A DNA stretch of 64,000 bases from Anaerolineae bacterium (GTDB taxonomy: Bacteria; Chloroflexota; Anaerolineae; Anaerolineales; Anaerolineaceae), in NCBI GenBank assembly GCA_013178295.1, contig JABLWW010000011.1:124001-188000 (forward strand), read 5' to 3'. This document shows positions 21,417 to 26,351 of this stretch, piece by piece. A program made the translations under genes and the position numbers. Every line of letters begins with the position of its first letter. The stretch's first letter is position 1. A model generated the notes under the pieces. The model was not told where the DNA came from, did not search any database, and was given only the letters and a program-made list of their open reading frames with translations.

Positions 21417-24329
21417 CTACTCGACACTAAAGGTGATCTTTTCCGAAAGCGTCTCGTTGCCTGCCAGGTCAACAGCCTTTACCTGGAGGGTGTGTTCTCC
21501 TTTTTGTGCCTCCCAGAGGTGTACATAGGGCGGCTGGATAGCTTCGCCTATCAGTTTCCCGTCCACGTACCAGATGACGCGCTCAATGCCGACAGCATCA
21601 CTTACGGTGGCTTCCATATTGACAGATGAAGCGAATACATTAATCTTCTGACCATTGGAGGGGGAAAAGGATTGTATGACGGGTGGTGTGTTATCTACGG
21701 TAACCTGTGTAATGGCGGACTGAATAGACTGGTCAGAGCGGATAACCAAAAGGCGCAAGGCGTAAAGCCCATCGCGTTGCTGGCGTGTGTCCCACGTTCC
21801 TAACACGTTGTCGTATTGCGGGGTGGTGACATCAGCGCCGATCTGCTGCCAGCTGCGCGGGTTAAGTCCTGCTCCTGCTTGCAAGCGATAAGCGGAAAAT
21901 GTCTCCCCGCCAGCGGAACCACGAATTTTCACTTCGCCTGAGACATAAGCAAAAAGCGGCGGGTATGTTATGCGCGTGTCGGGGGAAGATGGGGGAGGCT
22001 GAATTGTGTCGTAGGATTGTGGTGGCTTAGGAAGTCCCACCTCTTTTGCCCACGCGCTGAATTCGGGGGGAGGGATGAGAAAAGTGCGTTCCTCGATCAT
22101 TTCGAGGGGGGTGAATACGGTCGCCAAGAGCTGGGTTTCGCGGTTCACCTCATACGTACGGTACAGATTGTCAAACGTAGTGGGTTCGTTGCCTTGCAAA
22201 AATACCTCCTCCACTACTGCTGGGCAGGCAGGGGTAGGAAGCAGCCCTGAAGGGTCGCAGACTTTGATAATGCTGATACCGGAAGGTTGCTGCCATTCTG
22301 TTACCGGTAAATCGCGGTGGCTGTATTGCATGACAGCATGCCATATTCCGGCAGCCATTTTTGGGTCAAGTCGTAGATTGGGATCGCTCTGCGGCGGCAG
22401 CCCTAGCCAGACTACCGTCAGACGCTGAGGCGTATATCCGACGCTCCACACCTGATGACCGTCTGCGGTCTGCCCAATCTTGGCAGCAGCCGGACGTCCA
22501 ATTTGGAGAGGGTTGGGGAAACCCAGTGTTGCTCTGCGGGCATTGTCATCACCCAAAATATGATGGATAAGAAAAGAAAGCTGTGGGCTGAGCACCAGCT
22601 TTTCTTGTGGCGCTCCAGCTTCCCACCAGCGGCGGTGGGTTAAGTCTTCAATCCACAAAATCCCTGACGGGCGCTGGAGATTGCCTTCAGTCGCCTCACC
22701 TGTTGGAGTTGCGGACGCTTTTCCTATCTGCCGCCCCTGGTTTGCCAGTGTGGCATAGGACTGAGCAATTTCCAGAATGGTAACTTTACCCCCGCCGTAG
22801 AGCAAAGTCTCTGGGTTTTGACTTCTGGAGAGGTCTGGCAAACCAAACACCTGCGACATACGCCAGACGTTGAAAGCGCCTATATCTACCAAAAGTTTTG
22901 TTATGGGGATCAGATAGTCATTGGCGATTGCCGTTCGCAGACGCAGAGGCCCATGATATTCCACCTCTGGTGGCTGAAATTCCTCCAAACCCGCTGGTAT
23001 ATTCTGAGGGACATCCCAGAGCAGACTGGAGGGGCTGAGCCCACGCCCGAAGGCAGCTACTGCAACAAAGGGGGTTAATAGCGATCCTGGATCGTGGAGC
23101 GAGAGAGTCTCGCTTTCTCCCAGAACGCTGGTATCCCCCAACATTGCCAGCACTTCGCCGCTGGCAAGGTCAAGAATGACGGCGCTGCCCTCAAGTTCTG
23201 CCGGGAAAACCCGGTCGCCAGTTGCAATGGTGGGTAACAGAGAGGCTGTTTTGCAGTTTGCATCGTCCGGAAGACCTGTGGCTGGCATCTGGTCTTCGAG
23301 ACGCAGCAATTGGGTGCGCAGGGCACACGTCAGCTGGGTTTGCAAATCATAGTCTAGTGTGGTGATGATGCGTAAGCCGCCGCGTTCAACACGTTGCCTG
23401 CCCAGTGCTGCAATCATCTGGTTGATCACCTGACGGGTAAAAGCCCTGGCAATTTGCGGGGTTTCCGGCTGTGGCAACCTTGGCGAGATGATTGTTTGTT
23501 TGGCTTGCTCGTACTCCTGATCGCTGATCAGACGGCGTGCATGCCATTCTCCAAGCAAAACCTGCTGACGCTCGAATGCTGCCGCCGGAGCATCCAGTGG
23601 GTTGAGAGCTGGCGATTGTACTGTTGCCAGTAGCAGGGCAACCTCTGCCAGGTTAAGCTCTCGAGCGGATTTATCCAGATAAAGCCGTGCAGCGCTTTCG
23701 GCACCGTATGCCTGATGACCGTAATACATGCTGTTGAGCGTCCATTCCAGCACCTGGGCATGCCCATATTGTTTGATTGTCTGTGCTGCAAGCATTTTTG
23801 CTCGCAGGGCGCGGCGGACTCCGGCAGGTTCTTGATCGAGAAGCAGGTCTGACACCAGTCTTTCGGCAAGGGTGCTGGGCTGTGGTGAAAGCAAATGAGT
23901 CCAATCCACTCCCGATCCTTGCCAGAAGGTCGGGTCGTAGGTTGCCACTGTCATTTCCACCAGGAGCGGTGAGAAATGGTTGGCGTGTTCTGGGTTGAGG
24001 AAAAGATAGGTGCGTTCAACACCGGGGTTCTCGATGCTTGTCAGCAAACGTTGACCGCTGCGGTCATAAATGCGTGTTGGCTCAAGCAGCAGACCGTTAC
24101 GCGGATTGAGCCAGATGGGCAACAGCTCTATTGAAGGCAGGTTCGTTGTCAGGCTGGCATAAGCCATTGCTGACAGCAAAACGATAAAAACCAGGAAGAG
24201 CGAGAGCAGTGTGCCAATGATCCATAACGGGCGGATAAGCAGCGCTGGCAGCCTGCGCCGATGGGTGGCGCTGCGGCGCTGGCGGCGGTTTGTCAAGGTG
24301 TAGATCGAAAGCAAGCGCACGGGTTGCAT
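21417..24329 (-). CDS. Class A penicillin-binding protein-like pseudoenzyme
   Basis: A 970-residue membrane protein with a helix at ~32-58, a GT51 glycosyltransferase-like region (~100-250), a transpeptidase-like region (~380-650) and a C-terminal Ig-like domain (~885-970). The overall fold signatures are clear (LEWTLNSMYYGHQAYGAESAA, LAEVALLLATVQSP, WSVGYTPQRLTVVWLG), but catalytic positions differ: the motif-1 Glu is Tyr131 (ATYDPTFW), the motif-3 Glu is Ala177, SxxK reads SLLT (416-419), SxN reads DYL (471-473) and KTG reads KIG (617-619). The frame is uninterrupted. It probably has a structural or regulatory role in the envelope. The TPR gene upstream ends 7 bp before it. Confidence 0.88.
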   Translation of the reverse strand: MQPVRLLSIYTLTNRRQRRSATHRRRLPALLIRPLWIIGTLLSLFLVFIVLLSAMAYASLTTNLPSIELLPIWLNPRNGLLLEPTRIYDRSGQRLLTSIENPGVERTYLFLNPEHANHFSPLLVEMTVATYDPTFWQGSGVDWTHLLSPQPSTLAERLVSDLLLDQEPAGVRRALRAKMLAAQTIKQYGHAQVLEWTLNSMYYGHQAYGAESAARLYLDKSARELNLAEVALLLATVQSPALNPLDAPAAAFERQQVLLGEWHARRLISDQEYEQAKQTIISPRLPQPETPQIARAFTRQVINQMIAALGRQRVERGGLRIITTLDYDLQTQLTCALRTQLLRLEDQMPATGLPDDANCKTASLLPTIATGDRVFPAELEGSAVILDLASGEVLAMLGDTSVLGESETLSLHDPGSLLTPFVAVAAFGRGLSPSSLLWDVPQNIPAGLEEFQPPEVEYHGPLRLRTAIANDYLIPITKLLVDIGAFNVWRMSQVFGLPDLSRSQNPETLLYGGGKVTILEIAQSYATLANQGRQIGKASATPTGEATEGNLQRPSGILWIEDLTHRRWWEAGAPQEKLVLSPQLSFLIHHILGDDNARRATLGFPNPLQIGRPAAAKIGQTADGHQVWSVGYTPQRLTVVWLGLPPQSDPNLRLDPKMAAGIWHAVMQYSHRDLPVTEWQQPSGISIIKVCDPSGLLPTPACPAVVEEVFLQGNEPTTFDNLYRTYEVNRETQLLATVFTPLEMIEERTFLIPPPEFSAWAKEVGLPKPPQSYDTIQPPPSSPDTRITYPPLFAYVSGEVKIRGSAGGETFSAYRLQAGAGLNPRSWQQIGADVTTPQYDNVLGTWDTRQQRDGLYALRLLVIRSDQSIQSAITQVTVDNTPPVIQSFSPSNGQKINVFASSVNMEATVSDAVGIERVIWYVDGKLIGEAIQPPYVHLWEAQKGEHTLQVKAVDLAGNETLSEKITFSVE

Positions 24330-24336
24330 CCTGAAT

Positions 24337-26256
24337 TTATGGTGCGGGTGTTACGCTCTGGTCGTGCGCCAAGGTTGGCAGTTGGGTGATTGTTGGAATA
24401 GGCGTATTTGGCAAGGCAATCGTTGCAATTGGGGTGGGCGTAGCGGGGGGTATGCGGATGGTCGGCGTGCGCGTGAGCGGGCTTGTTTTTGTGGGGGATG
24501 GTGTGCGGGTGCGTGTTGGAGTACGGCTTGGGGTTTGTGTGGGTACAGTGGGCGTTGGCGATTTGGGCGCCAGCACATCCAGCCGCTGGCGTGCAGTGGC
24601 GCGCCAGGCGTCAGGGATGTCGGTAGAGGGCAGATTGAGCAGTGCTTCCCAGTCGCGAATTGCTGCCTGGAGCATGTTTATCTTCTCAAGCGCCTGCGCG
24701 CGCCAGTAATAGACCTGTCCCTCTTCGCCAATGTTGGTTGCCAGCCCATGAGCGTTAGCAAAGCGCATATAGGCTTCACTGTCTTTCCCCAGTATGAGAC
24801 AGGCACGCCCCAGGGCGATATTGGCATCAAAAGAGCGCGGGCGAAGCGTAATTGCCACGCGCAAGTCCTTTTCTGCCAGGTCTGGCTTTTGCTGCTCAAG
24901 GTAGATCAACCCGCGCCGCAAACGGGCATCAAATTGTTTTCCGTCTGCTTTTATTGCATTGTCAAGCGCAGCCAGAGATAGGGTAATTTGGTTTTGCTGT
25001 GCATAGGCTTCCCCCAGCCAGGCAAGCGCCTGTGCGTCTTGGGGCTCATAGAGGGTATACATTGCCAGGGTAGCGATTGCCAGATCAATATTCTCCTCTA
25101 ACAGGGCTGCTTGGCCAAGTGTACGATAAACATCCAAATAGGTGTAATCGAGTTGATTGGCGCGTTGCGCGTCTGCCAGCGCCTGCGCCGAGTTGTTAAG
25201 TTGCAGGTGGACGCGTGCGCGCTGATAGAACACCTGAGGTGAGTCGGGAGCTTGCTCGGCTGCCTGGTTCAGGTATTGCAGTGCGGTGGCAGGGTCATTG
25301 CGCGAGAGGAGCAGATGAGCTAGCTCAAGGTATGCCTCGGTCAAGCGCGGATCCATGTCAATGGCGGTTTTCATATCGGCTTTTGCATCTTTCCATTTTG
25401 TCTGAGGAGAAATGGCAAGAACGGATCTGCCGCGCCCTAGATACGCTGCTGCAAAGTAGGGGTTGATTTGCAATGCCCGTTTGTAGGCTGCAAGCGCATT
25501 GCTGTGTTGGCCTTCCATGCGGAAGGTCTCGCCGATGTAGAAGTAAATGTCCGCTGATTCCGGCTCGAGGGTTAAAACCTGCTGCAACATGTTGCGGCTG
25601 CCTTCCCAATCCTGACGCTGATATGCCGTCAGGGCGGAGCGATATGCCTCGGCGCGTGGGTGTGGGGTGTTGACGTACAATGGCGTGGGGGTATACGTTG
25701 CCTCCAGTAATGTCCACAATGGCACAGGACTACTGAAGGTTGGGGTAGGTCCGGTGGGGTGCGGGGTTGATGTAGGGGGGATAGTCTGCGTTGCTGCCCC
25801 GGCTGCAAAGAGCGGCATTTGCAAGCCTTTGCTGGTCTGATTTCTGGCGGGTAAGATCGTTACCACTGCTAGCACAGCCACAACCACCAGAAGGGCAGCT
25901 GCGCCTAGCAGCGAGGTCTGCATCCAGGCGGGCATCAGCAGTAGCTTATCTGCAGAGGAGGATGGGAACATTTTGCTTTGCCAATCGCGTTTCTGCAGAC
26001 GCATGGGTACTGCCAGCTTTTCATCTGGGGGCATAGCTCCCAGCAAACTCAATCCCCGCCGGGCAGAGAGGTTTTTGGGATCCAGGCGCAGAACCTCTTT
26101 TAAGCAGAAAATGCGTTCGCGCGGTGTTTCCACCACAACGCTCATCCAGAGCCAGTAATCTGCGTGATTGGGGTGATCCTTAATCAGACGGGTCAGCAAG
26201 TCGCGGGCGCGCAGGTAATCCCGATGCTCAATCGCCTGCATGGCTTGTTGAAACAT
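24337..26256 (-). CDS. TPR-repeat membrane protein with Thr/Pro-rich tail
   Basis: About 639 residues. An N-terminal cytoplasmic TPR pair (AIEHRDYLRARDLL, VVETPRERIFCLKEVLRL) precedes one membrane helix (LLGAAALLVVVAVLAVVTIL, ~120-140). The extracellular part has about ten TPR units in tandem (for example GEYAQQ-type helices A/B) and ends in a ~90-residue TPTPT-rich tail. TPR arrays bind proteins. The gene is co-oriented with, and 7 bp from, the PBP-like gene, so the two may form an envelope complex. ATG 26256 has GAGGA 5 nt upstream; the upstream ATG 26280 has no ribosome site. Confidence 0.85.
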   Translation of the reverse strand: MFQQAMQAIEHRDYLRARDLLTRLIKDHPNHADYWLWMSVVVETPRERIFCLKEVLRLDPKNLSARRGLSLLGAMPPDEKLAVPMRLQKRDWQSKMFPSSSADKLLLMPAWMQTSLLGAAALLVVVAVLAVVTILPARNQTSKGLQMPLFAAGAATQTIPPTSTPHPTGPTPTFSSPVPLWTLLEATYTPTPLYVNTPHPRAEAYRSALTAYQRQDWEGSRNMLQQVLTLEPESADIYFYIGETFRMEGQHSNALAAYKRALQINPYFAAAYLGRGRSVLAISPQTKWKDAKADMKTAIDMDPRLTEAYLELAHLLLSRNDPATALQYLNQAAEQAPDSPQVFYQRARVHLQLNNSAQALADAQRANQLDYTYLDVYRTLGQAALLEENIDLAIATLAMYTLYEPQDAQALAWLGEAYAQQNQITLSLAALDNAIKADGKQFDARLRRGLIYLEQQKPDLAEKDLRVAITLRPRSFDANIALGRACLILGKDSEAYMRFANAHGLATNIGEEGQVYYWRAQALEKINMLQAAIRDWEALLNLPSTDIPDAWRATARQRLDVLAPKSPTPTVPTQTPSRTPTRTRTPSPTKTSPLTRTPTIRIPPATPTPIATIALPNTPIPTITQLPTLAHDQSVTPAP

Positions 26257-26351
26257 GCTTTCCTCAGGTTTAAGCACCATGCTTTCAGTTTAACACAGGC
26301 AAAAAAAGTCGGCAAGGTTCGCAGCTTGTGAAGACAATCATTCGGAAGCGG

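Follow-up and report, generated by a model that had tools for sequence, protein, structure and literature searches.

A class A penicillin-binding protein-like pseudoenzyme from the Anaerolineales belongs to a clade with catalytic residues replaced in both domains

Kinases and the hydrolases of the bacterial cell wall both include well-known pseudoenzymes, and EnvC and NlpD are dead relatives of wall enzymes that have been kept for non-catalytic work. Here we describe a class A penicillin-binding protein (PBP)-like pseudoenzyme (P0001, 970 amino acids) encoded by an Anaerolineae bacterium (Chloroflexota; Anaerolineales; Anaerolineaceae; GenBank assembly GCA_013178295.1, contig JABLWW010000011.1). 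Its gene lies in a stretch of 64,000 nucleotides (positions 124,001 to 188,000 of the forward strand of the contig), hereafter called the window, whose own numbering is used throughout. In common with E. coli PBP1b, S. aureus PBP2 and A. baumannii PBP1a, the pseudo-PBP has an anchor, a GT51-like domain followed by a transpeptidase-like domain, and the predicted fold, but it differs from these class A PBPs in that the catalytic residues of both domains are replaced and the GT51 cleft is shortened. EnvC and NlpD, unlike the pseudo-PBP, have a hydrolase-type fold that regulates wall remodelling and are not related to a bifunctional synthase. The sensor domains of BlaR1 and MecR1 are, like the pseudo-PBP, PBP-fold domains outside wall synthesis, but they retain an acylatable SxxK site and have no GT51 domain. 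DipM has been described as a dead regulator in wall metabolism (PMC6373972). Dead regulators of wall metabolism are thus already known, and a clade of bifunctional class A PBPs dead in both sites is apparently undescribed as far as our searches could tell, none having been found in the open-access literature at the level of titles and abstracts, which does not prove absence.

The pseudo-PBP gene occupies positions 21417 to 24329 of the minus strand and is a single uninterrupted frame, as had been claimed, without a strand, by an initial annotation made from the sequence. The Transgly (GT51) profile of Pfam matched residues 117-261 (positions 23547 to 23981) with 76.9 bits against a cut-off of 27 (E = 1.7e-21), and about 11 residues are missing from this domain between motifs 1 and 2. 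The Transpeptidase profile was borderline, scoring 19.7 against a cut-off of 22.1 in the first scan and 24.8 when the protein was scanned together with its neighbours; a transpeptidase-like domain following GT51 (residues 381-680, approximate limits; 22290 to 23189) was recognized from the predicted structure and from the alignment with active relatives. A hydrophobic stretch was found by hydropathy at residues 29-62, and the predicted helix at residues 32-61 (24147 to 24236) would anchor the N-terminus in the membrane. The AlphaFold2 model had a mean predicted local distance difference test (pLDDT) score of 76.1 and a predicted template modelling (pTM) score of 0.64. A Foldseek search with this model matched class A PBPs (best E 6.1e-30), and the best row in VIA-align was likewise a class A PBP (Z 39.4, root-mean-square deviation 3.0 over 383 residues), with matches covering residues 66-723 and class B PBP3 rows ranking next at Z of about 32. 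The fold search gives the fold family, whereas the placement of motifs comes from the sequence alignment and the secondary structure of the model. Sequence and predicted fold therefore agree with the GT51-transpeptidase architecture first proposed for this frame, and together they indicate that the window protein is a class A PBP by descent.

The columns of the catalytic motifs were read from an alignment with six intact relatives of the same domain layout, 13 B-type and 43 C-type PBPs. In the GT51 domain, Tyr131 (23937 to 23939) stands in the column of the motif-1 Glu, STLAER (residues 152-157; 23859 to 23876) replaces STITQQ, and R173...A177 (23799 to 23813) replaces RKxxE, with Ala174 for Lys and Ala177 for Glu. 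In the transpeptidase-like domain, SLLT (residues 416-419, with S416 and T419; 23073 to 23084), DYL (residues 471-473, with D471 and L473; 22911 to 22919) and KIG (residues 617-619; 22473 to 22481) take the places of SxxK, SxN and KTG, respectively. The residues of an active GT51 enzyme, namely both catalytic Glu residues and STITQQ, are thus replaced, and none of the SxxK, SxN and KTG motifs of an active transpeptidase is intact. All these placements had been made in the initial annotation and fell in the same columns here, and its concern that the motifs might have been misplaced could be dismissed: the active same-layout relatives align across all motifs, and in the model helix 415-428 begins with the SxxK equivalent, while KIG lies within strand 615-620. 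The statement that every catalytic motif is altered is correct for the motifs as units but not for each of their residues, as D132, S152, T153, R173, S416, K617 and G619 match the active enzymes.

Loss of the catalytic residues characterizes a clade of 75 dead sequences and not one gene. The core dead set comprised 68 rows of the alignment, including the window protein, from 36 genera by our own count, and a further seven dead rows are distant; identical sequences were removed ahead of the count, as was L003, which duplicates the window gene in truncated form. Twelve motif residues were scored, and all 12 were kept in the six active same-layout PBPs of the order (L023, L024, L025, L027, L028 and L034), in all 43 C-type rows and in 12 of the 13 B-type rows, the remaining B-type row, which ends at a contig edge, having nine. 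Core dead rows kept one to six of these residues and distant dead rows none to four. Since complete active rows keep all 12 and dead rows at most six, the loss is not a matter of chance.

The motif-1 Glu was present in one of the 68 core dead rows, the first motif-2 Thr in 64 and the second in four (Ala in 62), and the motif-3 Arg in 62, while the Lys of RKxxE was found in at most two rows and its Glu in 23. The column of the old nucleophile, the SxxK Ser, contained Ser in 49 rows and Thr in 18, that is, one or the other in 67. No core row had the SxxK Lys or either the Ser or the Asn of SxN, with Asp in the Ser column in 65 rows. The KTG columns contained Lys in 63, Thr in 11 and Gly in 66 rows (the whole motif in ten), and the YLN Asn was kept throughout (68/68). 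Fifteen further distinct dead members of the order, among 47 loci read, all lacked the motif-1 Glu and the SxxK Lys, had Asp at the place of the SxN Ser and retained the KTG Lys. Two further families of the class contain dead members as well (L240, L241, L244 and L246). Because L240 and L241 retain the motif-1 Glu without most of the other motif residues, L241 retaining the RKxxE Glu as well, the loss within the dead clade was probably stepwise.

The GT51 cleft of the dead proteins also differs in length. The span from the motif-1 Glu to the motif-2 Thr was 23 to 24 residues in 62 of the 68 core dead rows. Active same-layout PBPs had 34 (five rows) or 45 (one row) here, and all 43 C-type and the 12 complete B-type rows had 34-36, which points to a cleft shortened by about 11 residues in those 62 dead rows. 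A pair of cysteines, Cys335 (23325 to 23327) and Cys359 (23253 to 23255), is common to the dead and the closest active members, being present in all 68 core dead rows, in all six active PBPs of the order and in L236-L239 of the class, and was absent from the 14 further active PBPs examined from the class and the phylum. In the 13 B-type and 43 C-type rows no Cys was listed at position 335, and every one of these rows is gapped at position 359.

Sequence identity was calculated in 30-residue bins from 300 random pairs each of the core dead and C-type rows. Because many of the 43 C-type rows come from three genera and the two sets differ in relatedness, the values are to be compared as profiles along the protein and not as absolute identities: from bin 391 to 660 core dead rows gave 0.28-0.55 versus 0.51-0.84 for C-type rows, whereas from bin 691 to 870 they gave 0.42-0.64, equal to or above the C-type values in all but one bin and near those of active same-layout PBPs. 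The latter bins fall in the post-transpeptidase region (residues 681-880; 21690 to 22289), where conservation among the dead members thus resembles that among the active ones.

Dead proteins formed one group in every tree. The SH-like approximate likelihood ratio test (SH-aLRT) support for this group was 99 with 25 dead rows and again with 33, and local support was 99 with 75 dead rows. In the 53-row tree, which included 33 dead rows, the dead clade had a bootstrap of 100 and an SH-aLRT of 99, the bootstrap not being fully settled (correlation 0.968). The 53 rows used for two trees (33 dead rows each) were chosen from a larger set without the long rows L030, L041 and L087, which were included in the trees with 25 and 75 dead rows, L030 under the label L083 in the former. 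In the bootstrapped tree the dead clade was nested among active same-layout PBPs of the same order and class, and its nearest relatives were such PBPs from other families, in the order and, for L236-L239, in the class. These active proteins are similar to the pseudo-PBP in length and layout and share its cysteine pair, but they have all motifs intact. The trees suggest that the dead clade descends from intact same-layout relatives and that both chemistries were apparently lost once. Several independent losses were also considered and not adopted, as the trees need one change only, although the long rows, shifted composition and the unsettled bootstrap leave some room for them.

The ratio of nonsynonymous to synonymous changes (dN/dS; omega by the NG86 method) was estimated in three genera with eight, ten and nine dead-PBP sequences, using only pairs with pS, the proportion of synonymous differences, below 0.62; most pairs were saturated, and those used numbered 3/28, 3/45 and 15/36 for the dead PBPs and 3/28, 1/36 and 10/36 for the C-type PBPs. 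In the dead PBPs omega was 0.121-0.139, 0.083-0.106 and 0.082-0.191 (medians 0.135, 0.102 and 0.165), and in the active C-type PBPs of the same genera it was 0.097-0.112, 0.076 (one pair) and 0.102-0.164 (medians 0.099, 0.076 and 0.129). All per-domain medians were below 0.3, with 0.05-0.21 for GT51, 0.10-0.15 for the transpeptidase-like domain and 0.08-0.10 for the post-transpeptidase region; the linker domain had an omega of 0.50 in one pair of genus g36. The dN/dS comparison called for by the initial annotation thus gave values of 0.08-0.19, near those of active PBPs, and indicated purifying selection after the loss of catalysis in three genera, the window's own genus lying outside the sample.

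When 300 genomes of the order were searched with a profile, there were very many full-length matches at E = 0 among the matches listed, and motifs were read only in those matches whose sequences were fetched. Eleven of the matches listed (own count), all from family f12, read through a stop, and the frames were otherwise mostly open. Proteins of f12 are shorter, with the match running on to profile position ~868-885, and L220, L224, L228 and L231 give frames of 836-917 amino acids. A search of viral_contigs with A1 gave no match. The pseudoenzyme reading of the initial annotation was upheld by these results, as the relatives are also dead, in frame and under purifying selection, and form one clade.

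Directly upstream of the pseudo-PBP gene and on the same strand, across a 7-bp spacer (24330 to 24336), lies the gene for a tetratricopeptide repeat (TPR) protein (P0002, 647 amino acids; 24337 to 26280, minus strand), identified by Pfam and hydropathy, with one hydrophobic segment at residues ~118-148 and a Thr/Pro-rich C-terminal tail; its main TPR array probably lies outside the cell. In the window's family, 23 loci (the window included) had 1.7 kb or more of sequence upstream of the dead-PBP gene, and in 17 of them a TPR homologue was the immediate upstream neighbour in the same orientation. No TPR homologue occupied this place in the 16 dead-PBP loci from the order's other families or in the six active same-layout loci of the order. 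The distance between the two genes was -4 to 21 bp in 15 of the 17 linked loci and 37 and -61 bp in the other two, all starts being first-start estimates. When upstream neighbours were clustered over 49 loci, the window not among them, the TPR gene was found in 16 and the next cluster in four. Among 25 genomes of the window's family, 14 contained both genes (two of them with a PBP fragment at a contig end), four the dead PBP only, one the TPR gene only, and six neither or a mere scrap. The idea that the pseudo-PBP is kept with the TPR protein therefore held within the window's family but not in the other families of the order. Because TPR relatives occur unlinked in other families, the two genes seem to have been paired later, at the level of the family. 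Some dead PBPs from other families (L061, L065, L158 and L163) follow a different shared gene; the genes upstream of L061 and L065 resemble NAD kinase and RecN.

As far as the motifs tell, the pseudo-PBP cannot polymerise lipid II, because the motif-1 Glu and the second Glu are gone and the cleft is shortened, and cannot cross-link stem peptides, because the SxxK Lys and the Ser and Asn of SxN are gone. Active wall-synthesis enzymes are encoded in the same genomes. The window's own genome has two other GT51 frames, which are class A PBPs with intact motifs (L076 and L077), together with four further transpeptidase-domain frames and three SEDS-type matches, and a C-type class A PBP was present in 26 of 26 dead-PBP genomes searched in three genera. 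Since both chemistries are lost and constraint is kept in many genera beside working enzymes, the simplest explanation, and one that we favour with moderate confidence, is that the pseudo-PBP is a pseudoenzyme of class A PBP ancestry that takes part in wall synthesis as a non-catalytic subunit anchored in the membrane.

Such a subunit might act as a dock, a spacer or an allosteric switch of the peptidoglycan-building machinery, and the role as scaffold or allosteric partner raised in the initial annotation is plausible. Partners could be bound by the GT51 shell, which is preserved, and by the well-conserved post-transpeptidase region. In the window's family, the pseudo-PBP would assemble with the TPR protein encoded just upstream, with which it may be co-transcribed and which we infer to be the partner. 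The Asp471-Lys617 pair, which replaces the Ser/Lys network, could lock the old transpeptidase site, as might be guessed from its co-variation. Asp471 and Lys/Arg617 occurred together in 65 of the 75 dead rows, were both absent in seven and were discordant in three; among four distant members, L240 and L241 have neither Asp nor Lys, whereas Asp is present in L246, which lacks the Lys, and in L244, which is gapped at the other position. These observations reduce to only four independent pairs (starred branches), about three concordant and none opposed, so that significance is out of reach and co-variation does not amount to proof of a salt bridge.

Only tentatively can a broader proposal be made, namely that, of the three class A PBP lineages seen here, many families of one order have converted one to purely non-catalytic use as a subunit. 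This regulatory 'dummy synthase' would dock onto the remaining active wall synthases or gate them; a deletion and the Asp471-Lys617 lock would have reshaped its two clefts, and in one family a membrane TPR protein would be its operon partner. The retention across dozens of genera of a bifunctional wall synthase with neither site working would mean that the body of a PBP is useful without its chemistry, and would offer a natural test of class A PBPs as scaffolds in a little-studied phylum. It also calls for caution, as counts of working synthases and beta-lactam targets taken from GT51 or PBP annotations of these genomes are too high.

Several findings weigh against a non-catalytic subunit. The loss is graded, with the second GT51 Glu, the intact KTG and, in a single case, the motif-1 Glu surviving among core rows as counted above. 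The TPR linkage was observed in a single family, and no close TPR relative was found in the dead-PBP genomes G006, G008, G011 and G037. Moreover, several genera of the window's family gave no dead-PBP match in the genomes that were sampled, and for this reason the dead PBP is not essential to that family. The genomes sampled from genera g11, g16, g17 and g46 gave only weaker, C-type-like scores or no match, which suggests that the dead PBP is absent from these genera. In the genomes from these genera that were sampled for the TPR gene (G010, G015 and G016), a close TPR relative was likewise missing.

An alternative is that the protein is a ligand sensor, whose old clefts still take up a ligand (lipid II, stem peptides or glycan) but do not turn it over, and which signals to partners such as the TPR protein or active PBPs. 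The residues on the pocket side that are partly kept in the core set (the YLN Asn, the first motif-2 Thr, the motif-3 Arg, Ser/Thr416 and the KTG Lys) and the TPR neighbour with its hydrophobic segment in the window's family are consistent with such a sensor, but the shortened GT51 cleft and the acidic residue in place of the SxN Ser make canonical substrate binding doubtful, and no signalling domain was detected by Pfam in either the pseudo-PBP or the TPR protein. We consider this unlikely, though not negligibly so.

It is distinctly improbable that the protein is a structural component of the envelope surface, in which the PBP shell serves as an extracellular scaffold that is no longer tied to peptidoglycan synthesis. 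Conservation relative to active PBPs is reduced in the catalytic domains and not at residues 691-870, and these genomes encode other small proteins with the module at residues 784-870, one or more of them with a hydrophobic end, as would suit a structural protein. The omega medians of the GT51 and transpeptidase-like domains, however, show purifying selection, and the fold of these domains is kept, which is beyond the need of a spacer.

A new enzyme, with Ser/Thr416, Asp471 and Lys617 as a different active site, appears very improbable. The frequency of Ser or Thr at the first position and of Asp at the second, and the joint occurrence of Asp with Lys/Arg, would fit such a site, but Thr replaces Ser in 18 of the 68 core rows, there is no general base at the place of the SxxK Lys, L246 has the Asp without the Lys, and the co-variation rests on four independent pairs. 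Decay of a single gene copy heading for loss, which could account for the lost motifs and for the genera without a match, is scarcely conceivable and already contradicted, as the relatives are dead too, omega is ~0.1-0.2, and the clade is a single old one with mostly open frames. Intact orthologues in the same genus, which would have made the window gene a decaying copy, were not seen, no other genome of that genus being among those searched.

At the C-terminus of the pseudo-PBP, Pfam identified an Ig-like domain (Big_7, residues 883-950; 21480 to 21683). In genus g36 of family f12, all nine dead PBPs that were read (L021 and L138-L145) are 833-870 amino acids long and their profile match ends before this domain, which is therefore dispensable. 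The 784-870 module has a homologue in the window's own genome (L259:643-1443, contig C1), a small protein with hydrophobic segments, and similar proteins occur in related genomes. Elsewhere in the same genome, an 888-amino-acid frame outside the window (G000:C12:86038-88101) appears to carry both SEDS (FtsW/RodA) and transpeptidase matches, and is perhaps a natural SEDS-PBP fusion.

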